A stretch of 64,000 nt of DNA from Tubulanus polymorphus (lineage: Eukaryota > Nemertea > Palaeonemertea > Tubulaniformes > Tubulanidae): assembly GCF_964204645.1 (NCBI RefSeq), contig NC_134034.1, positions 9,109,414-9,173,413 on the forward strand, read 5' to 3'. This document shows, piece by piece, positions 5,497-64,000 of this stretch; the stretch's first letter is position 1; the number at the start of each line of letters is the position of its first letter. A program made the translations under genes and the position numbers. Below the pieces are notes generated by a model. That model had not been told where the DNA came from. It searched no databases and was given only the letters and a program-made list of their open reading frames with translations.

Positions 5497-8039
5497 TTAC
5501 AACATTACAAGGTCACCAAGCAAGTAATCAACAGCAAATTCATAATTTGTCATATCAGAGTCCTCTCCATCATCATCATATGTTTCACCTTCACTCCAAT
5601 AACAAATGACATACACGCTCTTAGACTTCAGTCTTTTCATTTTTTCTATCTTCCCGTAGTAGAAGAGTCTAAGATTTTTCTCATCATCATGCCAGTAGTG
5701 CCCGACATCTCGCCCGATACAGTCCCCAGACAGCAGATCAGTTAATTCTAACAGTTGATCTGAATCCAGATCGGGGAACGCTGACCCAACCTCTTCAGCC
5801 GGTGTTTCTCTGAGTTTTTTCTCCATTTTTTTACGATCAGCCATACAGCGTTTTTGAGTTTTGCACGCTCGCCTTAGTGAAATGTCTCTTAGAATTTGTT
5901 TGGCTTCATTGCGACTTTCTGTATTGTACTGTCTAGCTTGCTTGACAGAAAACTGCACTAGGTGATCACGCTCTGGTACTTCGAAAGTGTCCATGAACTC
6001 ATTTACACGATTTTTCTGTGCACGTAATTTAGATGACAAGAAAACCATTGTTGCAAAAAACATCGTTTGGCTGTTGACGAAGTGCAGACAGAATATCATT
6101 TTTTCGCACTAGTTCTCTGTTTTTACTATCCTTTCCACAAATTTTGTGTTCTAGCGGACTTCCAAACAAGTCTGTTTCTCTCGTTAAAACAGACAAAATA
6201 TCTTTCTTTTGTTCTTTCATCATTGCCAGGACATTTCTTACCAAGCTTATACCATGCAGATGATTTATTTCGGTATCTTGGGATGTATAAAACCTCTGCA
6301 TCCACGGACCAGTTAGCAGTTTTCCCATCAACCCAGCCACATGCATTTGCACGATAGCAGTAATATGGTTGAAGTCGGCTTTCAGAGCGGTTCTTAGGCC
6401 ACCACAATCGGTTCCAGTGTCGAGAAATTTGCCAAACATTTTCAAGTGGCAAAAGTATTTCCCACATATGTGGAAAAATATATGCAGACGATTTCCACGA
6501 TACCTTGGAATGAATCCCAAAGGTAAGCCATTTTCCATCAACATATTTTTAAATCCAGTTGGGTCACCTTTACCGTCTACAAAACGGAGTTTGTTCATTT
6601 GCAGAACAACATTTCCAGCCATACAATCATTTCCGAATAGTTTTCCATTTTCAATTTCTTCTTTTTTTAGCGCAGCTCGAACTGTTGAGGCGATAGTGTC
6701 CAATGGATGAAGGTGGCAATTTAATTCAGTGAGTGATTTATCCCAAGCTCTATTTACTAAAACGATGGTAGCGTGGTTTGTATTGACTCTATCAGTCATA
6801 CTGTTGGTGATTCGACTAATTATATCTGCGCGGCGTTCCTGGTAACTGATATGTTTATATGCAGAGTAAAGTTTAGCAATATGATCGAATGAGGTTATAA
6901 TATGACTACTGTAATCCGCAGCGGTTCCACCAGCTAAGCGGTCAATTGCAATCACTTGACAGCGTTCATTCGAAAATGTGAGATGGATGCTGTTTATATG
7001 GACTCCTTCTTGTGTCGTAGCATCAAAACCTAGAGTGATGTTATCATTCCTAAGTATGGTTTCAACAGATTGAATATCGCTGATAACTCCAAGTTCTCGA
7101 CACATCTGTTCCACTGTTGTTCGATGCGGAATATCCGTTTTATAATCAAGTTCAACGTCGAACCTCGATGCAGACTGTTTCAATAGAGTTGGGATATTGG
7201 CGGTGGGCACCTGATTAACTAGAGCATCATAAACAAACAGCCGAGTTGATACTTGTATCTTCTTGTTTTTACTCTCTCTACTGAAACTTTCCACTGTCCC
7301 TGATTGAGAACTGTCCAATTTCATCTCGAGGTCTTCAATAATGTCATTTTTCATATCAAGCTCCGATTTCAGCTTCTTCACTTCCGGTTGATCCACTAAT
7401 TCCTGCTCCAATCGATCATTTTTCCTTTTTAACTTTCGAATTTTGTGATTAGCGATTCCAAGCTTGACAAAATGTTCAGTTTCTGAATATTGTTCTTTCA
7501 TTGCAGATATCTGGGCATCTCGACGTCTTAACTTCTGGGTCAAAACACGAACATTGCGTTTTTTTAAAAGCTGATACTCTAAAAACGCGATGCGCTTCTT
7601 CAGTCTGGCTGACATATCTGAATGCAACTGGAGCGACTTGTCAAGTCGCAACCTGAGTGATGGACATTTTGCACAAACTGGAGTTGATGAACTCTCCGGC
7701 ACTGATGACATCGGTCTACTTCGAACTGGTTTTGTATGACATGCAACAGAGAATCGCTCCTCACACAACGAAGAAAATTTGGCAAATTCGTTTGGATCGG
7801 TCAGCTTCTTAAATTTGTTGACTTTCCCGATCAAAAGCTGAATACGTTTCTTAAATTCGTATGGAGTAATGTTGATTGTTGGTTGTAACGCTGTTATCGT
7901 TTTTGCCTGGCTCTTCTTATTCTTGTTGAATGTATATATAACATGTCCATTCTACATCTTCTTCAATTTTTGAAAATCTTTCCAGGAATTCACTGCCTAC
8001 ACCTATTTTCCGCGTCTTAACATCCTCTTTAACCTCCAT
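5497..8039 (-). pseudogene. Coiled-coil transposase-like protein with two +1 frame breaks
   Basis: Three overlapping minus-strand frames join into one protein. An ATG at 8039 opens a 40-residue segment (MEVKEDVKTRK...). The frame then changes by +1 near 7920 into the long frame (7834-6029 and upstream of it). A second +1 change within 6029-6099, at a T6 run, leads into the last frame ending at 5497. The repeated tail DVFCNNGFL/VFLSSKLRAQ at the overlap shows where they join. The protein has a Cys pair (CAKC), a coiled coil at about residues 55-185 of the long frame, then a globular region with GFDATTQEGVH, HLHPLD and FHICGKYF motifs, and an acidic C-terminus. The GFDATTQ and HPLD blocks look like an RNase-H/DDE-type core seen in repeated proteins of marine invertebrates and fish. 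I cannot assign a superfamily. Two same-direction shifts suggest decay rather than programmed shifting. Confidence 0.55.
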
Positions 8040-8975
8040 TTGAAAAGATCTGCAAATTTACCTCCAAATTTAAGAGAAAAAAAATCTATTGATAAAATAA
8101 GATTCAATTAATTTCCATGCAATAAGTGTCTATTTAAACCGAATTAGCTAGTTTGTAAATACATTTTTGAAAAGCACATGCGTTTATTTACTATTGACAT
8201 TCGCATCAGCCAATCAGGTAACGAAGACGATGTCACGTGACCAAGAATCGCCACAAAGTAAACAAAAGAAAACCCTTTCAAAATCATTTTAAAATCACAT
8301 ATTTTATTCTCAAAAGTACTTAGACATTTACCAAACATACTAATCTTTCGATTATTCATTCTAAAACATATTTTCGGCAATTTATAGGCCCATATTTCGA
8401 CCCAACACCAGAAGACAAAACATCGTAATTTCTTCAAAAATGGCCGACCACGTCAAAATACATCGTCCGTTCCGGGTAATATTTTACAATGTTCTTGTCC
8501 TAATATCTACTTCAAACTTCATCATTATTTCAATGAAAGACATAATTCGATATGCAAATAGGTTTCATTAATATGCAGTCTCACCTAGAGGTATATTTAG
8601 CGCTTCGAAATCAGGTAAAATCTTCAAACTTCGCAAATTTCCGTGATTCTTAACCGATCAATAAAATTCGAAAACGAGGTGGAAGTCCCGGATTTCCCTG
8701 ACATCATACTAGGGAATCCCATAGGTATTCCTCAAAATAAGCCAATCAGAGCGATTTTAGTAGGGGATATCCCTAAGAGAGCCCATTTCCGCGTCACAGA
8801 ATAATCGAACTGCGCGTAGCACGATTCTGCCACATACCTACTTAACACACAGGGGCTTGTAAACTGGCTTGGATTTTACTTCCGGGTTGTTGATAATCTC
8901 GCGAGAATGGCGCTAAATTTAAACTGCAAATAAATCTAAAATATCACAGAAATACCTCTTGTTGAGGTAAGATTC
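8040..8975. other. Intergenic, MITE-like debris
   Basis: No gene seen. Short palindromic phrases near 8700-8780 (TAGGGAATCCC, GGGGATATCCC) look like decayed MITE ends. Otherwise ordinary AT-rich sequence. Confidence 0.4.
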
Positions 8976-8990
8976 AAGAATAGGGGACTA
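8976..8990 (+). repeat. Left 15-bp inverted repeat
   Basis: AAGAATAGGGGACTA, an exact reverse complement of 13762-13776. The AGGGGAC core is compatible with a G-rich Merlin-type end. Confidence 0.6.
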
Positions 8991-9356
8991 GGTTGTCTAC
9001 ACTCCTAATATCAACCCGCCGTCGAAATACTTACCTCCACTGTAATTTGCATTAATCAATACAACAGCCGACGATTTTTTGTCAAAGTAATAACCCCTTG
9101 ATTAGAAACTATAACAACAAACTAATCCGCCAATAAACCACAAATAAACGAACACGGTCCGCCATGATGTTAGACTGGTCGCCTGTCGAATTCTGCGCCA
9201 CATTCATTCGCAGTCAGAATAACTTATTCGAATAACTGAAGGTAGAGACCGGTAACCAGTCTACCATGATGTCACACAAATTACCCCCAAAAACCATCCG
9301 ACGAAGTCATGTAAAGCGGGGTGTCCAGCGGGCGCAACGGAAAACGGATAAGAATA

Positions 9357-9810
9357 ACACAGTCCTCAAATTAAATATGCAATCAAACCGATTTTCATGA
9401 AACCACAACCACAAACAACTAAACAATTTCAAATTCATAACTGATAATTTTATTTACTTACATAAAACACAATCCTCAAATTAAAAAAATCAATCAAACC
9501 CGATACATTAACACAATCCTCAAATTGAATAAGCAATCAAACCTGATACATTAACACAATCCTCAAATTAAATAAGCAATCAAACCTGATACATTAACAC
9601 AATTCTCAAATTGAATAAGCAATCAAACCTGATAGGCCTACATTAACACAATCCTCAAATTGAATAAGCAATCAAACCGATTTTCATGAAACAACCACAA
9701 ACAACTAATCAATTTCAAATTCAGCACTGATAATTTTATTTACTTACATAAAACACACCATTGACACAATCCTCAAATTAAATAAGCAATCAGACCTGAT
9801 ACATTCACAC
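9357..9810. repeat. 43-bp minisatellite, about 7 copies, with a nested longer unit
   Basis: Units begin ACACAATCCTCAAATT and continue GAATAAGCAATCAAACCTGA, at about 9357, 9467, 9510, 9553, 9596, 9645 and 9765. Two copies carry an extra segment of about 65 bp (ATTTTCATGAAAC...ATTTTATTTACTTACATAAA), so a longer compound unit of about 110 bp is also duplicated. The array lies just downstream of the transposase stop codon. No coding sense. Confidence 0.85.
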
Positions 9811-9843
9811 ACACTCACCACTCACACATCTTTATCTGGTATC

Positions 9844-11007
9844 TTAATCTGTTCCACATTTATATAATGCACAAATATCGTCCAAAAATGACATGAACAA
9901 ATTGTCAGTGTCAGCATGTAATCGACGCCACATGAACTCACCAAAGTACGAATCGTACATATGCTTACGGGTGCCAAATTTTGGTAAGCTGGATTTTGCC
10001 AGGTGCCACATGCCTTCCACTGTGTTGATATGCGCGCCAGTCTCAGGGTCCTTGAAAGTGACCGAATGATTGACGGAAAAGTGTTCAAAACCTTCCTCGT
10101 CTAGCGTTTTATACGACGACCAACAATCTGAGATAATTACAGTCCCTGCCTCAATCCAATCATGGATAACGGAATAAAGCGTGTCACGCCCCCGGTCTGG
10201 CACACACACCAGAAAACAGCGAACAGGAGGCTGACCCCTCTCCACTCCTCCAAACACCCATTGCCCCTCCACCCGTTTCCCTTTGTGGTATTTTCTTTTC
10301 CCAAATTTCAATTCGTCAATCTCGACAATTATTCCGGGTCCGCCAATTTTGGAAGATCTCTTCGTGATTACCATGTCCACGCACACTTCACGACAGAAAC
10401 TGAACCAATCCACAATCGTCGGCAAACTTAGGCCACATTCATGGGCCACATTCGTCAGTGATATTTTCCGGCTCCACCAGTACGTCACTTTGAGGATGGT
10501 TCTAATACTCAGTTTGCTGCTACTAAACCACGAGTCCGCTCGCACCGATTTTTTGGACTTGCAGCTGGGACATCGCCATATGTAGCCGTCGATTCGAGAC
10601 TTATCCTTCACTTCGTACATTGCGTTGCCACAAGACACACACTCACGACAAGCACCTAACAATTCTAAACAGAAATACATAACGTCATTCATGTTTCAAG
10701 CAAAAACCATAAATTACAGTTCTGGCAAAGTCCAATCATTACCATTGCAATAAAATTCTTTCATTTGAATATATCCAAAAACTATTGAATGGCTACATAA
10801 ACAAGATATTCTAAAGCAAACAATGATTTAGGGGAATCATATACCACTCTAATTTCGCACGGATTACTTATCTCACAATTACATTCTCAGTGCATCATTT
10901 CAATACTTACTATTCTTCTGACACCATCGAAATAACTTCTCAGAATCCATGCATAATTTGAACAAATCTTCAGCTGTCCGCATTTCGATTTCTTCGACTG
11001 TGGCCAT
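9844..11007 (-). CDS. Merlin-family DDE transposase (IS1016/ISXO2-like), 2 exons, apparently intact
   Basis: Exon 1 is 11007-10911: it starts MATVEEIEMR and ends at a GTAAGT donor in phase 1. Exon 2 is 10664-9844, after a TTTCTGTTTAG acceptor. Joined, they give 305 residues with no stop. A zinc ribbon is visible: CRECVSC at 38-44 pairs with CPSC at 64-67. Next comes a helix-turn-helix-like stretch (LTNVAHECGLSLPTIVDWF, about 102-120). The DDE catalytic core has D149 (EIDELKFG), D212 (ISDCWSSY) and E249 (NTVEGMW), the spacing of ISXO2/Merlin transposases that cut and paste DNA. A start at the internal ATG at 10692 would lie inside the intron and add spurious residues, so exon 1 is preferred. 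All catalytic residues and both splice sites are present, so the copy could be active or recently active. It is divergent from the ATPase gene starting 262 bp away. Confidence 0.88.
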
Positions 11008-11268
11008 CTTAACAAATACACACTATTTCAAACCTACTGTCTAGACGACGATGCACATTTCACCCTAAAACAGCAAATCTCTGGACATTGTCACACACAA
11101 CAAATCAACATAACAATGCAATTGGACTATCCTAAATAACCTAATTCTATTATCAGGGATGACACCATCACACCTTGGACTACCCTACATAACCTTATTC
11201 TATTATCAGGGATGACACCATGACACCCTGTCTCCAGAATTATCCTCAACAGCATTAGCTGGTCCAAA
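11008..11268. promoter_or_regulatory. Divergent intergenic region with a duplicated 53-bp block
   Basis: This 261-bp gap separates the start codons of the minus-strand transposase and the plus-strand ATPase gene, so both promoters should lie here. It contains two direct copies of a block of about 53 bp (about 11125-11177 and 11178-11230). Each has TTGGACTA, then CTATTATCAGGGATGACACC, with a few differences. Duplicated blocks next to a transposase promoter are often protein-binding sites; here that is an inference. Confidence 0.45.
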
Positions 11269-13595
11269 ATGCCACCAACAAAAGGGATGTCAGCTGCACA
11301 CCTAATATATCCTTACAATGATGACCACATTTTCCTGCACATTTTCCCCCCCTATTAATAACATTAACCTTCACACACCTTCATATAAAGATGCCCTCAA
11401 CCTCTGCATGGGCCTCTTACATACCAAGATGTCGAATAGGAGATTCAAACAGGAGAGTATCAACAAGCTCTACAAATCCGCATATAGGGAAAAGTTCTCG
11501 TGGGAACATATATTCAATGAAGAGACGTTGCACTGGCTGCAATTACATGAACAGGCATTCAACTGCAATGTTGGCATATCAGTAGCAAACATATTAACTG
11601 CCACTGCTGCACTGCTGGGGCCAAATGTAGCAGTAAAAACTACAATGAATGAAACGTCATTGAATACTTACGTCATGTCCGTTTGTGTTTCGGGTGGAGG
11701 AAAAACAATTGCGTATAACAACATTACCAAGCCGGCACTGAAAGCATTCAACAATAAATACGGTTTAAACCTTCAGCTTGAAACTTACAGCATAGCAGGT
11801 ATTCAGCAACACCAAAAACAGACCAACGGCTACGGACTAATAACAGCTGACGAAGGGGGAAGAAGACTGAAAGCAATTACATGCAAACAAACAAAAGGTG
11901 AGGGCGAACTGGGCCTCCTCAACAAAATGTGGGGAGGGGAAGGTGACACATCAGTCCTCAGTACAGGCGCTCGGGGTTTTAACAAGACTGGCATTTCGAT
12001 GAACGTTCCCGTTCAGCTCTGCTCTCGAACGAAATGATGCACTTGGCGGCTGTGGCAGATGGCTTTATGGATAGAATATTGTTCATTGTGTCGAAACCAA
12101 AATTCCATGATGCCCACATCAACGAACAGAGCGCTGCCCAGTATGACGTGAACACTGTCCAACATATATGACGCCATGCTGACACACCACCAGGATAAAG
12201 TGACTTACACATTTGATGAGAACGCCACCGAACTGTACCGCAACATGACAAGCAACTTCGCCCAATACATGTCCGAGAAATATAACACAGATTCAGATTC
12301 AGGTACAGTACACACCTTTAATTATCGAATTCTTACATGAAACTGTAAAATTGGAAAACCATTGCTTTGCTCATCTAAATAAACTTTGGACGTTTCCTTC
12401 CATTCCTGTAAATAGACAAACATACCACGCACATATATACTATGTATGCAATCATTTGTTGGCGAACATGTGCCTAATGTATACCAATTCTTTTTACAGA
12501 TGCACCAGAACAAACGATAACCCAGCAACTGGAAACGCCGATTACCATAACGTCCACAAAAGATTCCCAGCACGTCATCAAACTCGCCACAATAATCCAT
12601 ATTGTAGATCACTATTTCCTTACCACACATAATCCACCCCCAACAGAAATAACTCAGCGAAGCTTTAAAGCTGCGACCAGACTGCTTTTCACAATGAATA
12701 AACAAAAGGCACTGTTCATGGATGTAAGTAACGCCGACAGCCTTTTGAATTTAAACATCTACTTTTATGCAATTCGATCAGGGGTCACTTACCCTATACG
12801 ACCTATCTCCTGATTTTACTGGTTTATTCACTGACATAACAATCTGAAAAAGACAATTAATCCTAAACATTTGCTTTCAGTCAACATTATGATTATATGT
12901 TACAGGCAATTCAGACTATAATGCAAGATGCAGCTCTCAACATTCGGGCAACACCTAATTGGAATCAGAGGATTCTGAAAGCCATATGCAATCTTCCCGG
13001 ACCTATGATAACAACACGAATGGTACAACTACGGATAGCGGGTAGCTTACAGCAACAAATCAAATGTAAGTAATGTACTTAAGGACCACTATTCACTGCA
13101 TTACGCACAAAAAATTTTTTTCTATTCTTTGCCCCCTTACCATTTTGCTAAATTTGGAACACCATACTCAATTCTATTATCAATTAAATGAAACACACAC
13201 CCTACATAACCATCACAAACTCCATAGGCAAATATAATAACCATTATGATAATGTCCCCTTCTCTTCAAACATTCCTAAAATGAGAAACAATACAATGTT
13301 TACACATAATTAAAGACCTCATGATCTTATATTTTTGAAATGTTTGTATATTGCAGATAAATTACAGGAAATCGGAGAAAGCGGTTTCGGAACATATGCT
13401 ACAATAAAGGTGGGACGTCAGAATAGAGATATATTTCTAAAGCCACATCCAGACACTATAGAAATCACAAGCAACCATCTTACAACAGCGGGTACAAGCC
13501 ATGATGTTTATGTGGCAAAATTCTACGACCTAAAAGATATGACAGATACCATGACACCAAAACCACATTCTCTCTATATCTTTGCCAGTTGTTGA
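11269..13595 (+). pseudogene. P-loop ATPase (DUF3987/primase-helicase-like), 4 exons, frameshifted
   Basis: Exon 1 (11269-12302) begins MPPTKGMSAAHL and shifts frame at a C6 run near 11350. It then carries a clear Walker A (VSGGGKT) and a Walker B-like LITADEGGRR. It shifts again near 12012 into a frame with DGFMDRILFIVSKP, and again near 12167 (YDAMLTHHQDKVTYTFDENA). Exons 2 (12500-12723), 3 (12906-13065) and 4 (13357-13595) follow canonical splice sites whose phases match exactly (1, 0, 1). The protein ends ...LYIFASC. The order Walker A, DE box, then a GF-x-x-R-x-LF motif resembles DUF3987 proteins, which are replicative primase/helicase-type ATPases in plasmids and phages. The open downstream exons show it was a real spliced gene. 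The three shifts argue that this copy is dead, unless they are assembly errors. Confidence 0.6.
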
Positions 13596-13761
13596 GGTGT
13601 CGAGCTGTCGAGCTGTCAGTCCTACAAGCCACGTTCTCTCTTTATCATCATGTATAGTAGGCTTTGTGTCGCACCGCCATCTATCCACCAGTCCCTTTTG
13701 GATTGCTAAGTATCGCCAGGTACCATCTATGGACAATTTACGGGAGCTACCACCCGCGCTA

Positions 13762-13776
13762 TAGTCCCCTATTCTT
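13762..13776 (-). repeat. Right 15-bp inverted repeat
   Basis: TAGTCCCCTATTCTT, the exact reverse complement of 8976-8990, 167 bp beyond the ATPase stop codon. Confidence 0.6.
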
Positions 13777-16289
13777 AAATCGCACCCTTGTTGATGTTGT
13801 TCATTTATCCACTATAGAGTTTCGATAAACAATTGGCTGTTAAGGATCAGTATCAGCGGGCACGACGCCTTACTTTATTAAAATAACAAGGGATGAAACG
13901 GCTTCGCTTTTGCCTGTGACCGTATTGATGCGGCGGAAACCACTGCGCATGCATACTAGGAGGCCTCGAGTCAAAAAAAGAAAGACAAATAAGTAAATAT
14001 TCATTTCAGGAGCTATCCTAGCATTTCCTTTAATAGTGAAGACGAATATTTCAACTTATTAGGCAAAGGAGATTGGGAAAAGTAAATTTTTGGTGGGGAA
14101 AAAAATTTGAGAAAGACAAGGCCTGGATTCTGGTGGAAAATACTAAAAAATTTGCCATTCGATAGCCATTATTTTACTTATACTTGGCCGATTTCTTAAT
14201 AAAGAATGAATTTAATGAGTAACATTGTCGTTTTAGTTGCTAATTTGCCATTTTGAGTAGCAAAAACGAACCAGGAAGTGTTTTAATTGATCATCTGGCA
14301 GCCGGTGTGGAGCCGGAAGTGACCTGGATGTAAACAATTTTAAGCACCTCGCCAACTTTAGGTCAAAATCCGCGAAAGACTACTAAATCAATCATAAAAG
14401 TAATTACAGAAAATGATTAATAAAGTATTCAATTTTGAAACGTATGGGTGTACTTTTTGTCAATTATTATAATTTTCGAATATTGAAGCTTTGAAATACG
14501 TTCATCGCTTGAAAATAGCAAAAACACGGCCGGGCAAAAAAGTACGCATCACTACGTTATAGCCGAGAAATGTTTTTAAAATGTCCCGAGGTCAAATAAT
14601 CAGCCAATCAGCAGTGGGCTTGCGGATTTGACCTGAAAAATTGCATGTGGTTTTCACGTGATTGAAAAATGCATGTTCAAACATGGCCGCCATTTTGTTT
14701 CCTAGAAATCCGGCGATGCGCGCTGAACTACGATTTATTCGTCTGTAACTACGCAAGATACACTCATGAAATTTACACCACAACAAATAACTGGTAAATT
14801 GAGCATACTGAGCAAGTTTGGTTTCAATCGGATATAAAATGCGTTTTTTGTGAGTGAATAAAAATTTGAAGCGAGGAAAACGCTAATTATGACACATTTT
14901 GATCACGTGACCTGAAATCCCTATTAACATGCTCTCCTGGCATTTGACTCATCATTGCTTTCACAACCGGCTTACGTAGGGCCTACCATCCTTTTTGACA
15001 CACCAAATCGAGCTGCCATTGAACAAAAGGATTCAGAAGTGCCTGAACTGATGAAATTAAGCAAAACATCCATCCATCATGTGTTAATAATCCAGAATGA
15101 AAATAAGTGAACGTAGGGCCTTGTTCATTATACCTTGTTCATATTATACCTTGTTCAGTGGATATCGTTTGATTGGGTTAATATGTAATAGATGAAATCT
15201 AAGTGACGGACGCCACGGTCAATGCTTGATTAAATTTTTCATAGCAAGAAATCGTACAGCAATTCGAAAAGAACCACATTCACGTACGAATGTTTTGATG
15301 AGCATTTTATGATGAGTTGATGAGAAAATTCAATATTTAGTTTTTGACTGGTAAAAAATGAAAGTTTGACGGGTAGAAAATGAAAGTTTGACGGGTAAAT
15401 TTGATATTTCATTTTGACAGCATATCCATGCCATAGTATTCTTCCTAGGTCTCCAAATGTTTACAAAAAAAGTATCGTAGTTATCAATAGGACTATTGCC
15501 TGTTCAGAGACTTGGAAAATGTAAAAAATATTAGCCTTATTACAAGCAACCAGAGACTAGACATAAAAGGCATGATTTATGGTAGCATTAAGATTAGAAT
15601 TTGGCTAGTGTTTCAATTTATGTTCAATAGATGGCGCTAGTTATAGCTCGGCTGTCAAAATATGTTAGCTCAGGAGGCAGTTACACCCGATAATAATTCC
15701 TAAATTTGCAATCCAAACTTCTAAAGGCAATCGTCAACTTAAATATCGATTAAAAAAACATTTTATTGATGACTTTCATCTGTTTTGTGCATTATCTGCA
15801 TTTTTCGAATGTTAGTACATAAACTATGAAAAATAATGAAATAATGAACATTTTCATAATTCATACAATTTATTATAAATGATACCTTACAACGATAGAT
15901 GGCGCTTGCATACAATCAAACCCACTACACTCCTAAAGATCTGGCTCTTTAAAGACAGAGATGTTCGAATAAATTTCAGCTGTATATGTACTAAAAAAAA
16001 AACTGCTTAGGAGCTTTAAGCTATAACAACTCGCATGTTTTCACTAGCTGGCGTATATGAAAAAAATCTATTTGTCAAAAACGCGTATTGAAAAACCTCA
16101 TAAATTTCATTTCTATTGTTGAACTGAGCATACATTCTACCAAGCCATGTGCTCAAACTACAAATTCGATCAAATTTTATTCTGCCAAAAAAATAAAATC
16201 CAATTCAATTTTGTTTTATTTAGCAACTTTCAGAAAATCCAATTCAATTCTATTCAGCATTCATATCAATAAGACCAAGAGAAACGATC
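13777..16289. other. Long non-coding stretch with small tandem repeats
   Basis: No gene seen on either strand in 2.5 kb. Local features are a direct repeat of TTATACCTTGTTCA near 15128-15160 and a three-unit repeat of about 22 bp near 15345-15400 (GACGGGTAGAAAATGAAAGTTT and variants). Confidence 0.5.
15345..15402. repeat. Three tandem 22-bp units
   Basis: GACTGGTAAAAAATGAAAGTTT, GACGGGTAGAAAATGAAAGTTT and GACGGGTAAATTTGATATTT follow one another directly. No coding meaning. Confidence 0.7.
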
Positions 16290-26590: not shown

Positions 26591-28684
26591 ATGATTCAAA
26601 GACGTCGTAGACAGGCAGCTACAGCAGTCGCGTTAGCTGTCTCTCTAGGCTTAGAAGAGAAGCAAAAAAAAAGAATTTGGAAGAAGGATTGGCTTCATCG
26701 TCACGACCAACAAGGTGTTTTTTGCAATTTAATGAGGGAGTTGAACTTGCAAGACCAGGAGTCGTTTCAAAACTTCTTCAGAATGTCTGTTGAAAATTTT
26801 GAACACCTGACTGATCTTGTTTCTGGCAGAATCAGCCGGCAAACCACAAATTTCCGAAAGCCAGTTCCACCTGCAGAAAGGCTTGCAGTTACTTAAAGGT
26901 ATCTGGCCACAGGTAAGACAACACAATTTTTTTAAAGTGAATATCAAAATTTATTGTTGCAAAGTTTACATTAATACTGATTGTCAATACTATTGATGCT
27001 AAAAATATACTACTGTACTGTTGCTCTGCTATAGTTTAGATGTACAACAGTATTGGTAATACTTAAACCATTACATAACACATATTTTCAGGAGAATCCT
27101 ATAAAAGTCTATCGTATTCCTTTCGGCTTGGAGCCACGACAATAGGTGAAATTGTTCCCGAGACGTGTCGAGCAATTTATGAAGTATTGAAAGATGACTA
27201 TCTAAAAGTAAGTTAGAGTCAAATACATTTGTATTTACTATTATACCTAAACACCTAATACCAGTTTTGAGAATATGATGGCTCTGCCAGCATTTGCATG
27301 TAGGATGCACCCTCATTTCGAGCCTGGTACCGATCAGGCTGGTGTTGAGCTGATGGGTACTTTGGTGCTTCCATGTTTGCCAATTCAGCTTCTCCCAGAG
27401 CTTGATTTATTTTGTTTGTAGCTTCATAGCGTATACGGACATTTGTTATTTTTCTCAGTTTGCTAGCAATTAATCTCCCAAAAATATCCATCTCATCTTC
27501 TGAAGGAATCTCCGGATATTCAATGGGCCTATCCATTGCATTGGCGATTGTCTCCAAAAGGCTAGTTGTAGTTTTTTGAGATTCAGCCGATTTTCTTTTG
27601 GTTGGACCTGGATTGTTCCTATGCTTTTTAGCTGGCTCCAGAACTGATGTTTCTAACAGATCATCTTCGGTATCGGCATGTTTCCTTTTGGATTGGTCCG
27701 GAGCCTTGGGCTTTTTAGCGGAGTCCAGAATTGAATTTTCAGATTGAGCATCATCATCATTGTCACTTGAACTGCTGGCACCTTCATCGATCTCTTCTTC
27801 AACATTGGGATCAATATTTTCAATTTCTTGGCTATTATTGAGCTAGAAAAGAATTTAAAAAAAAAAATTACAAATTGATTTTTATTTTCAATTTTCAGAT
27901 GCCAGAAACACCAGAGGAATGGAAAAAAATTGCAACGACGTTCAATGATAAATGGAATTTCCCACATACATTTGGAGCAATCGATGGAAAACATATAGCG
28001 TTAAGAGCTCCAAATAACTCGGGCTCAACATACTTCAACTATAAGAACTTTTTCAGCATTGTTCAAATGGCACTTGTTGATGCTGACTACAAGTTTATTT
28101 ACGTCGATGTTGGATGTAATGGAAGGGTATCAGATGGAGGGGTTTTTGCAGGATGCAGTTTACTGCAGGCCCTTAATCAAAGACTGGCAAACATTCCGGA
28201 ACCAGAATGTTTGCCAGATTCGGACATTATGATGTCCTACCACATTGTTGGCGACGATGCATTTCCCCTGAGGGACGATTTGATGAAACCGTTTCCGTTT
28301 CGAAACATGACAACTGAACTAAGAATTTTTTACTATCGTCTTTCAAGAGCCCGCCGGGTAGTTGAAAATGCGTTTGGAATAATGTCATCAAAATTTAGGG
28401 TTTTCCTAAGTCGGATACCACTTAGTCCGGAGAAGGCAGAAATTTTGGTGCTTGCCTCGTGTGCCCTGCATAATTTTCTGAGGTCACGTGCCGATATAAT
28501 CTATAACAGTGGTGTAGACGGCTTGGAACTGGATGAAGGTATGAGGGTGGAACCAAACTTAATGTCATGTGGAATTCCACACAGCAACTATGCTGGTACT
28601 CAACCAAAGGAAAAGAGAAATAAGTTGATGGACTACTTGAACAGTGCTGCTGGGGCAGTTGCTTGGCAACATGCGATGATATGA
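26591..28684 (+). pseudogene. PIF/Harbinger DDE transposase (HARBI1-like), 3 exons, one stop codon
   Basis: Exons are 26591-26912 (GTAAGA donor), 27092-27207 (TTTTCAG acceptor, GTAAGT donor) and 27899-28684 (TTTTCAG acceptor). Phases match and give 407 codons. Exon 1 is a basic N-terminus (MIQRRRRQAA) with a helical domain. It has one in-frame TAA at 26894-26896, where the family usually has Leu in VTLRYLATG. Exon 2 reads ESYKSLSYSFRLGATTIGEI, and exon 3 holds the DDE nuclease. Catalytic residues are the Asp in GAIDGKHI (about residue 175), the Asp in VGDDAFPL and the Glu in RVVENAFGIM. The enzyme cuts and re-inserts the element with a 3-bp duplication, working with the MADF partner. One T-to-A change would explain the stop, so this copy died recently. 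Intron 2 contains the last exon of the partner gene on the other strand. Confidence 0.9.
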
Positions 28685-37528: not shown

Positions 37529-39534
37529 CTAATGTATGTTGGTTGTCCAATCCATACTTCGCCGGTTACATATCATTGTATGACTTAAACACCCAAAAAG
37601 GTGATTCATGCCCATAGCCATCATCATGAAATGAGCAGCAAGATCTTTCTTTACTTGTGACATCCGCTCATCATCTCTACCCGCCATAAGTATATCATCA
37701 ATATATAAAGCGATGACATATATCTCGCCATCTTCTAAGAAGGCTATATAGATGCAAGGATCAATACTTATTTGTGTGAATCCCATTTGCTCCATTTTGT
37801 AAATACTTTTATTTAATTTAAAAACTACATGTTCTTTGCCTTCAACCTCAAAGCCTGATGGCTGCTTCAAGTCCTCTAAAAATCCATCCAATTCAACAAG
37901 ATTTTTTTCAACGTTTTCATCTTGACTAACCTCATCTGCCACATTTGGTTCGTTCACAGCACTGCATCTGATCTCCTCGCAGAACACATCTCTACTATAG
38001 AACACCCATTGCTTTTCAAGATCGAACAGTCTATAACTTTTGGTTTCAGTGCCATATCCAAGGAAAATGCTTTTCTATGCCTTTGCATCTGGTTTCTTCC
38101 GCTCATCCTTTGGTATATGTGCGTAAACAACACAACCAAATACACGTAGATGATCTACATTAGGTTTATCACCTGTTCATGCTTCATATGTTGTCAAACT
38201 TTTCACAGCTTTGGAAGGACTACGGTTTTGCAGATATACAGCTGCTGACAATGCCTCTGCCCAAAACTTTAATGGCAATTTTCCATCTGCAAGCATTGAC
38301 CTCACAGTTTCTACTAGAGTTCTGTTCATGCGTTCAGCTAGGCCATTCTGTTCAGGTTTTTTAGGAATTGTCAACTGATGCTGAATGCCTTCTTCCTTCA
38401 AATAGTTTTCATACTCTTTTGATGTTTATTCTCCTCCATTATCTGTATGTAGCACTTTCAGCAGCTGTCCAGATGACCTCTCGACCAAAGGTTTCCATTC
38501 CAGAAAATTTTGAAATACTTCATCTTTGCGTTTTAGGATGTACATCCATACATAGTGAGATTTGTCATCAATAAACATAAGAAAATACTCACTTCCACGA
38601 ACTTACTGTGTGCTCATCTTTCCACAGACATCACGGTGTCTCTGATTGTTTATGACCTTCCACAGGAAACGGTTTGCGGTGAAGTCTACCCTTCGTACAT
38701 GGCTCGCAAAAACCACGATCTTGGCATGAATTGTAGTCAAAACCGCTAACCATATTCTCTTTAGCTAACTTCTTTTAGGTTTCTTCCTCCTAGGTGTCCG
38801 TATCGTCGATGCCAAGATTGAGCCGCTCTGTTCACCTGCGAACATTCATTTTGACAGTTCAGGTAGTACTAACTGCCAATTCTAGTTGTATATCCAATCA
38901 CGTTTCTTTCTTCATCAATTATCATACCTCCAACCTTTTTCACACTGAATAAAGTGTATGACAACCTGGGAAAGTACAATACTTTCTGTAGCTTGCATCA
39001 TTTCGTCTTATCATCAGGGTTTACAAGTTCTAACTTAACAATTCCTCGTCCGACTGCTTTCACTCTGTTTCCGTCCCCCAATGTTACTTCCTCTGGGTCT
39101 TCTAATATGCCAAGTTCAACAAACAGGTTCCCATTGTTACACATGTGACATTTCCCTGAGTCCACAATCCAGCATTCACGTCCAATCTCTGTACTTGTAG
39201 ACTGCTTGTGTCTGACCATTAACAAGGTGCTGTCTATGTCATCACTATCATCGAAGCCATGCTCTCTCAGTCTAGCTTCTGCATTATGGACCTTGTGCTT
39301 CAATTTCTGTTTATTCTGCTTTTGGTTTTGAGTTGCCAGAGCACGATCTCTTCTTGTCATAAACTTGGAATAATTGTCAGCATCTGAAGTATTTGGTTGG
39401 GTTTCTCGACCACTTACAATATTCCACAGTCTGTCTCTGATCAGAACCATGCGACATTGAACCTTCCAGGTCGCATAATTCTTGCTATTCAGCAAAACAA
39501 TCACCACTGGTCTTGATTCTGAGCCCATCATCAA
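37529..39534 (-). pseudogene. Ty1/copia retrotransposon, decayed gag-pol
   Basis: Minus-strand fragments follow copia order. 39534-38998 has a gag start (LNSKNYATWKVQCRMVL) fused by deletion to the protease region, with the active-site block altered to DSGKCHM (usually DSG-A/S-S-x-H-M). 38401-38177 has the integrase C-side block (EQNGLAERMNRTL, with the catalytic Glu, then NRSPSKA). 38005-37529 has the reverse-transcriptase start (PSGFEVEGKEH, KLNKSIYK) and the YIDD box inside ALYIDDILMAGR, with a deletion between them. Many stops lie between the pieces. RNase H and LTRs are not identified. It sits just downstream of the BEN-domain exon and may have truncated that gene. Confidence 0.85.
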
Positions 39535-49834: not shown

Positions 49835-52197
49835 CGGTTCCTGAACTTCGCTGAAAAAGCTGAAACACTGAAAAGCTGAAACGCTGAAATAAAAACGCTG
49901 AAATTTCAGGGAATTTCCGAAAAACGCCGAAATTTCAGGGAATTCCCGAAAACGCTGAAATCGTGCTAGGTACCGACAATACACGTTTTGAAATGTTTTC
50001 CGGGCCGTCGTCCGCTGACGAGTCCTGAACCGTGTTTTATGCTCTACCTTCGGTTACAGAGACATGCCTTAAGGTCGTCGTCATGATCGACTTGATCGAT
50101 TGCGTGGATTGTTAGATGTGTTTTTTGCCATAGTTTTATGTGCATATACCGGTACGATCTAACAATGAAGTTATCACTTCATTTGAATAAATTCTTAATC
50201 ACAGTAATATTAATTCACAATATTTTTTCTTATGTTTGGTGATTTCTTGCAACTTATCATTGCCAAGTCTCATACAAGTAGTAGCTGAATGAAAGTACAG
50301 TTAGGCTGAACCTGATAACCCAAATTAAGTGCTAGCATGGAACTAATGATTATTTTGATTCTATTTTCGGTGTCATTGAAATTCGTTAATAAAGGTTCAA
50401 CCGTCATAGTATACTGTACTTAGCATTGCTACAATTGGGTGCCATATTTCTACAATTTCTACAAGGAGGAAGGAATCTTTAAGTGTCTTTGTTCCCGGGT
50501 GGGGTACGGGGTAAAACCTGGTTTACTTTCGACTTGCCGGAGACTACTATCTGCAATGTATTGCATGCTTTGATGTGTCTGGCCTATAGGAGTCGACCGA
50601 TATTTTTTTCCCATACACAGGCATGGCTTTAGTGTAGATGAAGGCTAGGCACTGCACATTGTGGATTGACTGGAACTCTTAACTCACAAAATTAAACGAG
50701 TCAACAAGAAAGATCCAATAATTGGACATTTGTCTAACTATATTATTTAACAGCTTGAAATAATACATAACACATTCTGCAAGAGTATAGAAAGGAAATC
50801 AGTTCTTACATTATATCAGAATCAATAGTTCGCTTAACTCTGGCTAGAATTCTGGTTCCATTGCTTCATATTCTAATGAAATCCACTAGTATACCTTAGA
50901 ATATCGCTTAGCTTAAGACTAAAAATTTGGTACCAGGAAACAGGGAAGAAAAGTGGGTGTACTGTACATCCGCAATTGACTTATTTCTCTCTGGTTGAAT
51001 CAAGTTATTATTGAAATAGCATTCGAATAGCCATTTTATTTTTAAAAATTATGTCGTTCAGCTATCCTGCTGCAAATTTCGCAGTTGAAGTTTACTGGTG
51101 CCATCTGATTTCTCAGTATCTCAAAAAATTTGCACATTCTAAGCCTGAATCTAAAAATAGAAAAAGGTGCATTTTAGTCGGATATAAAAGAATAGTGGCT
51201 AATACACCCTGGACTATATAGCCTATGGGGTGGGCCTAGTTTGAAAGCACTGAGGTCCGAGAGAACAGCACTTAGTAAATAAATACTGAAATTAAACTTA
51301 CAAAACACCCAGTACTTGAGATGATTTACTTGACAAGAAGTGTCACCAGCTAAGCAAATCAACTTTGTCTATGACTCCTCCTTTTATAGATTCAGTAGTA
51401 GTCTAAAAATAAGAATGGGTTTATTTTTCTAACAGTTGGTATGTCATTTCTTCAAAAAAACTAATTATTATCACGCCACAGCAAATAAATTATTCACAGT
51501 TGTTGAATGGTTAGCCCGATTTAGATTAATTGGTTGACACTAATCAGTATGACCCATACGTAGGGGCCTACTGCATGCCATTGGCGTCAATCCATTCCAT
51601 TCCATTCCACAGTGAATTAAAAAGAAATTTAGTTAGATCCCTTTTGTCCAAAAGCTGCATCATTTATATACCTAGCTGTCAAATTTAATTTACCTCCTTC
51701 AGAGAATACCATAGTGACATAGTCCGTCGCCCATCAACGTGTTGACAAAAGAAAAGTTGCTCCATGTTTTATACATGAACGTTCAAATAAGATATTTTGC
51801 GTCTTGCAGGGAATATTGAGCATAGTGTTTAAGTTGGCTTGCACGGTTTGTGTATGGGTTTTCCTCATTATGCTGCCTGTATGCATTAAAAATCCGGATT
51901 TCAAGCGAATTAATTTGTCTAACAAGTGGCCCTCTAGAAGTATACTCCACACATACTGTCCATGCGTGTCTCTGTAACCGAAGGTAGAGACTAAAACACG
52001 GTTCAGGACTCGGCAGCGGACACCGGCCCGGAAAATATTTCAAAACGTGTATTGTTGGTACCTAGCACGATTTCAGCGTTTTTCGGGAATTCCCTGAAAT
52101 TTCGGCGTTTTTCGGAAATTCCCTGAAATTTCAGCGTTTTTATTTCAGCGTTTCAGCGTTTCAGTGATTCAGCTTTTTCAGCGAAGTTCAGGAACCG
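49835..52197. mobile_element. 2.36-kb element with 231-bp inverted repeats and 9-bp duplication (MULE-like)
   Basis: The ends CGGTTCCTGAACTTCGCTGA and its complement continue as near-perfect inverted repeats over about 231 bp (49835-50065 and 51967-52197). They are rich in short internal repeats (CGCTGAAAT, GAAATTTCAGGGAATT). GACTGAGAT is duplicated directly outside both ends (49826-49834, 52198-52206), a 9-bp target duplication. Long repeats plus a 9-bp duplication are the Mutator-like pattern. The 1.9-kb middle shows no transposase or other gene, so it is non-autonomous. It is inserted between two parts of a retroelement. Confidence 0.85.
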
Positions 52198-61371: not shown

Positions 61372-64000
61372 TTAAGATTCTAGAAATGAGTTTAACTGAG
61401 ATATCTGTTCTGGTGACATTTGGTGTTGAACCTCTGTACTAACAGAAAGGGACCGAGTTGAAAATGACCGATATTTGTTTCTAATACAATGCAAATTTAA
61501 GTGATAATAGGTTCTTTGGGGTTTATTGGATTTCGTTAATTCACCAGTGTGGGGATGTTTATACGTTCTGAAATCCCATTTTCTAACAATAAGGTCACAA
61601 TTAGTTGATTCTGAATTACGGAACTCTTTACCGCAGCCATAACATTTTTTTATTAAACCTTGTAAAAAGGTTACTGAAAAATCATCCAAATTAAGGGAGT
61701 CGCATTGCTGCGATGTCGAACCTGAAGAACCACATCTCCTGGGTTGGTTACCTTTGGTTCCACAAGACTGTAAATTTACACTAGATGTTGCAATTTTAAA
61801 TAAGTTTGTTCTTTTTTTACTACTTTTGTGCCACTTCAAATACTGACCAAGACTTGCTGCTTTTTCGGCAGCTGAAACTGAATGTGAACAAAGGGAATGG
61901 AAGGAAAACTGTTTACACGTACAGAAACAATTGCCACTTTGCACATTAACATTAACCGAATTATTTGTTATCGAAGTATCGCTTATAACACTGAACTTCT
62001 TAATCAATGGATTATTTGAAGGGGCACAGGCAATAGCATTTGAAGATGACAAAATATTATCAGCTTTTTTCCAAATTGAAAATAACAATGACTCAACAAT
62101 CTGAACTCCATATTTATCTTTAGCATCTTTAACGGATATGGATATGTTTGAAGATGGTATAGTAATCAGATTTGAATCCACGCGATTATAAAGTTCATGC
62201 ATCGTTAATGATTGGACCATTTTCGAATGCTCTATGCGCTGTGGGTGCGTCAATTGAAATATATTTTTACAAACAACTGATTTAAATTCATCCCTTACGA
62301 CATATCGTTCGGAAACATTAGAAAACGCTCGGTATAACTCTTCCCTTTCACTCAGAATCATATTTTTTAACGATTTAATAAAAGCACATAAACCCAACTC
62401 TCTGTTTTGCATCCAGTTCCTCATTCTAGAATTCGTGCTCTCCGAAGAGTTAGTATAAAAGTAGGAAGGTGGATCACCCATTCCTGCATTTTGTCTTACA
62501 TTAGAAATAAAACAACTCTTAATCATGGATAGATTTTCATTCATGTACTTCGAAAATTTTTTAGACTTATCTAATTCATTCCAACGAATTTCCAGTTTCT
62601 TGAAATTGAATATCACATTCATCCGCAGTACGGGAATTAATCAATGCATTTATACTATCATTTCCAAAAATACTAGCTAGAATTTCATTACTAGAATTTT
62701 GATCCAGACCAATACTACTTAACTTACTTATAACATTTTTTTAAAGTGTCTGGTACAACGTAAATGCAAAGCATTTGGAAAATAAGACGATACTGCCTGA
62801 AAAAGTTCGGTTTCCCCATCAGTACCGAAAGCTATAATGTCTTTTAGATCATGCTTTTCAGTTAATGTTCGAAAAAGGGTCCCGTAATCGTCTTTTTTCT
62901 TAGTGAAATGAAGCAAAACGGGGCCTGTGAATATAGGTGATTCTGCTGATCTTTAACATTGAAGCATTAAATTCTTATATGTGATCGGGGTTACATGAAA
63001 CCTTCCAAATTTAAATGTGGGATCAACTGAAATAGGTGCAAAATCAATTGGATCAGATGAAAACTTAAACATATCATCTAACTGCTCATTAAAAAAAAGA
63101 ACTGCAGCGACGTTGGGGTGAACCCCCAAAAACTGAATAAACTCCTTTAGTTCACCCTTAGCCAGGTCCATTAATACTGCTAATTCCTCGTTTTCATGGC
63201 AATGAGTAATACCTTTTTTACTTTGTCTAACTTTATAGGATAAACCTCTTGTGGCTAAATCAGCTTGGGAATCAGCAGTTAATACTGACGATACAGATAT
63301 AGATTCAGCAGATGTTTGTCCAAGCATATTTTCCTTAGTTGCAGTTACAATAGAGGGTTTAACTCTCGTATGAGGTTTTTGATTAGTCTTAGAATTTCCA
63401 TGGGGTCTAGCAGATATCGGATGTTCTTCATTGTCAAATGAATACTGAATGAATACTGAACTGTTGGCTATAGTACCATTCTTGTCGGTTAAATACATTA
63501 GCTTCCTAGAATGGTCTACATCATATTTGTGCCTGTAGTAGGTCTTGTAAAGGTATAAATTACATTCAATTTTCTGCTTAGTCATGGAATATTTCTGACC
63601 ATTGTTTACAATATTTAATTTAGTTTTCCCTTTATGAATATAAACACCATTTCCATCACATTTTATATCAGCAAATGGAACTCTTTTTAAATCAATGATA
63701 AAAACGACATTTTTATCAACACAATACGGAACTTTGGTACACTTTATAATATTTTCGTTGAGTAAAGTAGTACATACAGTGTCGATATCCAATTCTTTGC
63801 CCTCTTTGAATATGGGTAATTGCTCGTCACCATTGTACAGTTTCATCGGAACAGATCTGTAAAGTTATTCAATTATTCATTATTGATGTAAACACAATAT
63901 ATTATGTATATCGTAAGGTAAAGTGACCAATTGTATATATGTATTTACCTTGTATCGTCATTTTTCTCACTGTCATCAGAGATTACTATACAGTCCGAGA
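61372..64000 (-). pseudogene. MULE transposase with SWIM zinc finger, 5' end outside window
   Basis: An upstream exon (64000-63949, continuing past the edge) ends at a GTAAAT donor and encodes DCIVISDDSEKNDD, a SUMO-interaction-like motif. The next exon begins at 63856. The catalytic core shows the first Asp in SVDPTFKFGRF, then HVTPITYKN, the second Asp in FGTDGETELF with LRCTRHF, and the Glu in TNSSESTNSRM. A SWIM-type finger follows (CFCTCKQFSFHSLCSH) and then a late Cys pair (CYGCGKEF). Damage: an in-frame TAA at 62953-62955, a frame change at an A7 run near 62740, and a compensating change near 62600. Mutator-like enzymes move DNA by DDE chemistry; the SWIM finger binds DNA ends. No terminal repeats are found in the window. 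Confidence 0.8.

Follow-up and report, generated by a model that had tools for sequence, protein, structure and literature searches.

A Merlin transposon of the nemertean Tubulanus polymorphus carrying a spliced second gene that encodes a DUF3987 ATPase, a candidate MCM-like helicase

Merlin elements are known as simple elements that carry a transposase only. Here we describe a Merlin of 4,821 base pairs (bp) from contig C10 of Tubulanus polymorphus, which occupies positions 8966-13786 of a stretch of 64,000 nucleotides (the window; NC_134034.1, positions 9,109,414 to 9,173,413) and was inserted as a unit with two genes, respectively coding for a DDE transposase and an ATPase of the DUF3987 family. 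On balance, we think it probable that the latter is an MCM-like helicase, with the predicted role of unwinding the DNA of the element, or assisting in its copying, during transposition. The features of the element are as follows:

8958-8965, no strand: left target-site duplication CTTGTTGA, same as 13787-13794; the joined flanks match empty sites
8966-8990, plus strand: left terminal inverted repeat, 25 bp, starting with GG; the same 25-nucleotide left end is found at other loci of the genome
9355-9830, no strand: subterminal tandem repeats with a unit of about 43 bp (repeat families D1-D3)
9844-10664, minus strand: Merlin transposase exon 2, DDE_Tnp_IS1595 domain, DDE residues present (profile, protein match and alignment)
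10911-11007, minus strand: Merlin transposase exon 1, start codon at 11007 (exact match to P0002)
11122-11227, no strand: tandem pair of a 53-bp unit separating the divergent genes (repeat family D5)
11429-12302, plus strand: DUF3987 ATPase exon 1, with the P-loop at about 11690-11707, the Walker B DEGG at about 11849-11860 and two frame changes
12500-12723, plus strand: ATPase exon 2; preceding intron in phase 1, as in the second family
12906-13065, plus strand: ATPase exon 3; preceding intron in phase 0, as in the second family
13357-13595, plus strand: ATPase exon 4, C-terminal region with part of a putative winged helix; preceding intron in phase 1
13762-13786, minus strand: right terminal inverted repeat, 25 bp, starting with GG (repeat search and abutting duplication)
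13787-13794, no strand: right target-site duplication CTTGTTGA, identical to the left copy (empty-site match)

The inverted repeats at the two ends (8966-8990 and 13762-13786) are identical at 22 of 25 positions with GG at both termini, and a perfect 8-bp target duplication, CTTGTTGA, directly abuts both of them (8958-8965 and 13787-13794). These features agree with those given for Merlin in a survey of the superfamily, namely inverted repeats of 24-462 bp, terminal GG and a target duplication of 8 or 9 bp (PMC8101967). An earlier note on this DNA had described a perfect 15-bp inverted repeat bracketing both genes, which is real and forms the inner part of the 25-bp repeat; the target duplication that it had reported missing appears once the ends are extended outward, and was overlooked because the end of the element had been taken 10 bp too far inward. 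A repeat with 22 of 25 matches at a spacing of 3.0-5.8 kb was found in none of 200 dinucleotide shuffles of 8400-14400. The whole window contains 252 pairs at 22/25 with a spacing of 1.5-8 kb, among which an exact outer 8-bp direct repeat is seen only at the element and at 49908 paired with 52095 and 52124.

A query of 188 nucleotides, in which the two flanks of the element are fused around a single duplication copy, was searched against the same genome (267.8 Mb) and gave at least 43 matches. At least 41 of these span it essentially in full (40 at 1-188 and one at 1-187) with 94-97% identity, the matched sequence being exactly 188 bases long in 36 and 186-193 in the rest; the count is a lower bound from 40 scored candidates out of 564. 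The insertion site lies in a dispersed repeat of which no fewer than 41 further copies exist, several of them arranged as inverted pairs about 500 bp apart. The presence of empty sites at the joined flanks means that the element was inserted, along with its genes, as one unit into this repeat, and it is near certain that the element carrying both genes is a single inserted mobile unit. In the stretches scanned, neither gene alone is flanked by an inverted repeat of 10/12 with an exact 5-bp duplication, which speaks against a nested or side-by-side insertion.

The transposase is encoded on the minus strand in two exons (11007-10911 and 10664-9844), and its 305-residue product is 100% identical over all residues to the annotated T. 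polymorphus protein P0002 (LOC141911570). It is matched by the Pfam profile PF12762 (DDE_Tnp_IS1595; E=4.6e-19, 69.4 bits against a cut-off of 27), in keeping with its earlier recognition as a Merlin DDE transposase; its matches are to IS1595 models, and it does not qualify as a transposase of the Academ or Kolobok superfamilies. Residues D149, D212 and E249 of P0002, which we take to be the catalytic DDE residues, are invariant in 13 aligned transposases. The gene layout first proposed lacked the 5' exon at 10911-11007, and the two genes are divergent, as had been stated, with start codons 421 bp rather than 262 bp apart.

The ATPase gene lies on the plus strand in four exons (11429-12302, 12500-12723, 12906-13065 and 13357-13595) separated by three GT-AG introns, its start codon at 11429 being placed by alignment to P0001, a related protein of the same animal. 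The DUF3987 profile search that had been suggested as a check was positive: PF13148 matches the open reading frame (ORF) of exon 1 with E=1.8e-7 (31.2 bits) and the read-through with E=2.3e-14 (53.8 bits), against a cut-off of 27; P0001 itself scores 99 bits. These matches and the exon mapping bear out the description of a four-exon, DUF3987-like gene with Walker A and DEGG motifs. The Walker A motif reads CVSGGGKT, and as its first position is a cysteine in three of four aligned members of the family, this residue is a feature of the family and not a sign of decay.

P0001 (LOC141909242) was recovered in a database search with the window ATPase (36% identity over 92%), and a search of the genome with it gave 71 exon matches, including four near-identical loci with four stop-free exon matches each. 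In the second family, four ATPase copies share identical outer ends, and each is flanked by a different perfect 8-bp duplication (CCAGTACT, GCTGCAGT, ATGAAATG and AGCAGAGC); three of the four keep both genes, and the ATPase frame of this family is open, unlike that of the window copy. The copies on C7 and C4 are 99.4% identical over 4,738 bp, with the similarity ending exactly at the GG termini, the C9 copy has an internal deletion leaving only the N-terminal part of the transposase, and the transposase match of the C6 copy is split over two frames. A transposase of this family from another locus, P0088, diverges from the other copies past residue 275. The third family comprises two copies with both genes in convergent order and the ends GGTTCAAGTCCAG and GGCTCAAGTCCA; the C10 copy has GTTATTTC on both sides and ATPase matches spread over several frames, and the duplication of the C6 copy agrees at six of eight positions. 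Across the seven elements of the three families that have both ends and an ATPase, a perfect 8-bp duplication is present in six and both genes in six. Three further gene pairs (F4, F5 and F6; the families above being F1 to F3) are not counted as complete elements, since their ends were sought and not found. Tandem arrays lie between the ends and the genes in all three families, with units of about 43 bp in the first, about 25 bp in the second (from shifted self-matches), and 8 and 50 bp in the third. Beside the C6 copy of the third family lies a 1,910-bp stretch (C6:12036577-12038486) with GG-starting inverted repeats matching at 20/25, a duplication CGAATCAG and the 50-bp repeat array also present in the third-family elements.

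The genome thus searched yielded one full copy of the window family, so that the earlier suggestion to look for further copies with both genes was answered by families 2 and 3, which have both genes and duplications, rather than by the window family. The latter has many shorter copies that carry its ends and neither gene. Both ends could be located (with at most five mismatches) in eight of 17 gene-less stretches examined, six of them 1.4-3.7 kb long and the other two, which contain a nested insert, about 7 kb; these copies keep the outer ends, and do not end between the two genes, an outcome that the earlier note had named as refuting its reading. Gene-less copies with the same GG ends are L032, L034-L037, L039, L041 and L042, with L036 consisting of two such copies head to tail with 3 bp between them, and L041 and L042, both on C5, being near mirror images of each other, their ends surrounding about 7 kb with long ORFs that by eye resemble a retrotransposon lacking long terminal repeats. 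A second ATPase piece, on C3, is 83% identical to the window ATPase and adjoins a fragment of the left end of this family.

Clustering of the genome matches reduced 71 ATPase matches to 29 loci and 43 Merlin matches to 42, and with a neighbor distance of 7 kb a Merlin accompanies 15 of the 29 DUF3987 loci; about 0.064 would be expected under random placement, a rough null that ignores the clustering of transposons. The gene order in these 15 pairs is divergent in six, convergent in five and tandem in four. PF13148 has 15 matches in the genome; five of these have E<1e-11, namely all four second-family copies together with the C6 copy of the third family. An ATPase gene standing alone at a host locus, which the earlier note had named as a refutation, was looked for at these five strongest places (the weaker C4:17716189 and C8:175486 being left out), all of which proved to lie inside elements with Merlin ends. 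The reading of a two-component Merlin is hence supported by the duplications, the empty sites, the repeated two-gene mobile copies and the two further families.

We compared the families over ATPase residues 1-215 and transposase residues 111-302. Pairwise identity across F1-F4 and F6 is 38-52% for the ATPases and 36-66% for the transposases, F5 being a near relative of F3; the ATPases of the three families with ends located are 41-51% identical and retain the Walker motifs. The ATPase and transposase trees, built from few sequences, both split F1 and F2 from F3-F6, and the ATPase introns of families 1 and 2 lie at matching places in phases 1/0/1. The ratio of nonsynonymous to synonymous substitution rates (dN/dS) of the ATPase, from pairs that include some broken members, is 0.47 for the C6 copy of F3 against F5 (0.50 for the C10 copy), 0.48 for the window against the C3 copy and 0.41 for F2 against a C5 copy; near-identical pairs are uninformative (1.63 on seven changes, 0.26 on two). 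For the transposase it is 0.63 and 0.74 (F3 and F5), and another pair of loci gives 1.08.

The possible function of the ATPase is suggested by its phage relatives. A phage member of DUF3987 gave a confident model, which in Foldseek searches resembles the MCM replicative helicases (MCM AAA+ fold), the structural matches of this model, among those listed, being MCM helicases, and several phage relatives are annotated as DNA helicases. A low-confidence model of P0001 tentatively shows a C-terminal winged helix (residues 393-451). No fold of the TnsC/MuB/IstB type is present among the 50 matches listed in each of two structure searches, which proves no absence. Phage and plasmid searches with P0001 gave no match, the phage matches of P0123 are weak (E 3e-3 to 1e-2 for the best 20 of 64), and no relatives were recovered by the ATPase profile in viral contigs and genome contigs or by the Merlin profile in viral contigs. 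We regard it as moderately supported that the ATPase is an MCM-like helicase that may aid transposition or copying of the element; because the fold of the DUF3987 family appears MCM-like, a role in unwinding or replication would fit better than one in target choice.

Under this proposal the transposase would cut and join the ends of the element, as IS1595/Merlin enzymes do, and the ATPase would assemble an AAA+ ring like MCM, with its C-terminal winged helix recognizing DNA, perhaps the tandem arrays between the ends and the genes. The ring could then unwind element or target DNA, such that the gaps left by excision are copied, or the element is replicated once excised. A bolder version, to which we give a slim chance, is a self-copying cut-and-paste Merlin lineage ("MerlinH"), in which the transposase would release the element and the MCM-like ring, after loading onto the tandem arrays close to the ends of the element, would replicate it before reinsertion.

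Several observations weigh against the reading of a two-gene Merlin with an MCM-like helicase. On the structural side, the phage model has low Foldseek TM-scores against MCM chains (0.30-0.38 by query length), and the match therefore covers the core and not the whole chain; the modelled phage relative is 16-21% identical to P0001, P0122 and P0123; a direct model of P0001, from a three-sequence alignment, has a predicted local distance difference test score (pLDDT) of 33.5; and the MCM profile PF00493 does not recognize P0001 (11.7 bits against a cut-off of 23.3). In the window copy, exon 1 of the ATPase shifts frame twice, at about 12020-12030 and 12160-12168, so that the gene is probably broken and, judged from its sequence, its product probably no longer made whole. 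With regard to the pairing of the genes, 14 of the 29 DUF3987 loci lack a Merlin neighbor within 7 kb (one being the C9 second-family copy, the others partial or broken matches), and 27 of the 42 Merlin loci have no DUF3987 gene within that distance. Two second-family transposases lack the ATPase: that at C2:12131931, which is truncated with one end found, and that at C7:11892413 (L167), which encodes P0088, has no DUF3987 match within 7 kb, and is a separate C7 copy (100% match) 97% identical to the transposase of the C7 two-gene element. The eight gene-less window-family copies with both ends all lack a perfect 8-bp duplication (best 7/8, in L039), an absence that counts against the simple picture. 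The F6 ATPase is nearer to that of F2 (52%) than to those of F3 and F4 (44-45%) and its transposase nearer to those of F3 and F4 (47-49%) than to that of F2 (36%), and given this disagreement the two genes may at times have moved separately. Finally, a one-gene Merlin of 2,077 bp at C11:8859086-8861162 (L165), with 20/20 repeats and the duplication AAACCGTG, encodes a 329-residue transposase ORF and has no ATPase match better than E=0.9; it was one of two ATPase-less control loci, ends and a duplication not being found for the other, its 98.8% relative on C3. The existence of this element in the same genome suggests that the helicase gene is accessory and marks a sub-lineage, rather than being essential to Merlins generally.

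The one-gene Merlin, the second-family transposases without an ATPase, the broken frame in the window and the numerous short copies with neither gene would all be expected if the ATPase were a passenger, captured by Merlins and playing no part in transposition, or serving them indirectly, for instance against host silencing. We hold this to be unlikely, though it is the alternative that survives best: the ATPase has been kept in three families with ends located (five with F4 and F6), its Walker motifs and intron phases are conserved, and its dN/dS is 0.41-0.48 in three pairs. In bacteria it is well established that DDE transposases can have AAA+ partners, and MCM and TnsC/IstB are both AAA+; the ATPase might accordingly be a target selector like TnsC, MuB or IstB, as the earlier note proposed, whose filament marks target DNA and activates the transposase with no helicase activity. 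This appears doubtful in view of the helicase annotation of several phage relatives and of the MCM helicases that make up the listed structural matches, even if the absence of other folds there proves nothing. That a Merlin merely adjoins a separate ATPase element or host gene, bracketed in appearance only, would accord with an ATPase being near only 15 of 42 Merlin loci, but is scarcely credible when one duplication and the empty sites enclose both genes, four second-family copies (three with both genes) share identical outer ends with separate duplications, and neither gene has ends of its own in the stretches scanned.

The element resembles the Merlin superfamily (Feschotte 2004, as described in PMC8101967) in its IS1595-type DDE transposase, GG-starting repeats and 8-bp duplication, and differs in that a spliced DUF3987 ATPase gene lies within it beside the transposase gene. 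In the same survey a single transposase gene is given as usual for the IS1595 family, from whose insertion sequences the window element likewise differs by the second gene inside its ends, and in its main text the terms second ORF, passenger, additional ORF and ATPase do not appear. Helicase-bearing lineages exist in other transposon superfamilies, namely AcademH and KolobokH (PMC10045372, PMC9587614); these too are DDE transposon lineages with an added helicase, but their transposases are of other superfamilies, and KolobokH has RecQ where the window element has a separate, putatively MCM-like DUF3987 gene. The "DNA helicase" of T1-like phages (PHROG 2373; Shigella phage Sfin-3) belongs to the same Pfam family and aligns at Walker A and B, a conserved arginine and the C-terminal region; at the identity of 16-21% noted above, it is encoded in one open frame as against four exons in the transposon. 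The MCM helicases themselves have no significant sequence match to the transposon protein, whose ring and unwinding activity are predicted. The Tn7, Mu and IS21 systems likewise partner an ATPase (TnsC, MuB and IstB) with a DDE transposase, but are bacterial elements of other families, and the structural neighbors listed for the phage DUF3987 model are MCMs. No report of a Merlin that bears an ATPase or helicase gene was recognized in the literature searched, which comprised listings and the beginnings of abstracts, with bioRxiv and most subscription papers outside it. We consider the Merlin variant with an accessory helicase gene to be real and apparently unreported.

The window region 49908-52124 has identical 25-nucleotide inverted arms about 2.2 kb apart with the exact outer 8-bp direct repeat mentioned above, and is possibly another transposon. 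An ORF at 27875-28684 contains a DDE_Tnp_4 domain (E=6.4e-29) and presumably encodes a Harbinger-type transposase, and 37529-39534 holds fragments of a Copia-type retrotransposon, with the ORF at 37529 judged by eye and that at 39001-39534 having a match to Pol_BBD above the cut-off and a sub-threshold one to a copia gag family. A 601-residue ORF to the left of the element (6029-7834) has no significant Pfam match, and a 416-residue ORF at 61372-62622 has a sub-threshold match to a SWIM zinc finger. Another Merlin transposase fragment lies about 0.9 kb outside the window on its left side (C10:9108243-9108482).

In conclusion, several mobile Merlin families within one animal retain a DUF3987 gene, from a family otherwise met in phage helicases. 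This raises the question of how a DNA motor helps a cut-and-paste transposon, and whether it was taken from a phage or another mobile element. The near-identical second-family copies, with their open ATPase frames and perfect duplications, offer material for testing this. Should the self-copying version hold true, MerlinH would be an animal DNA transposon with its own replicative helicase.

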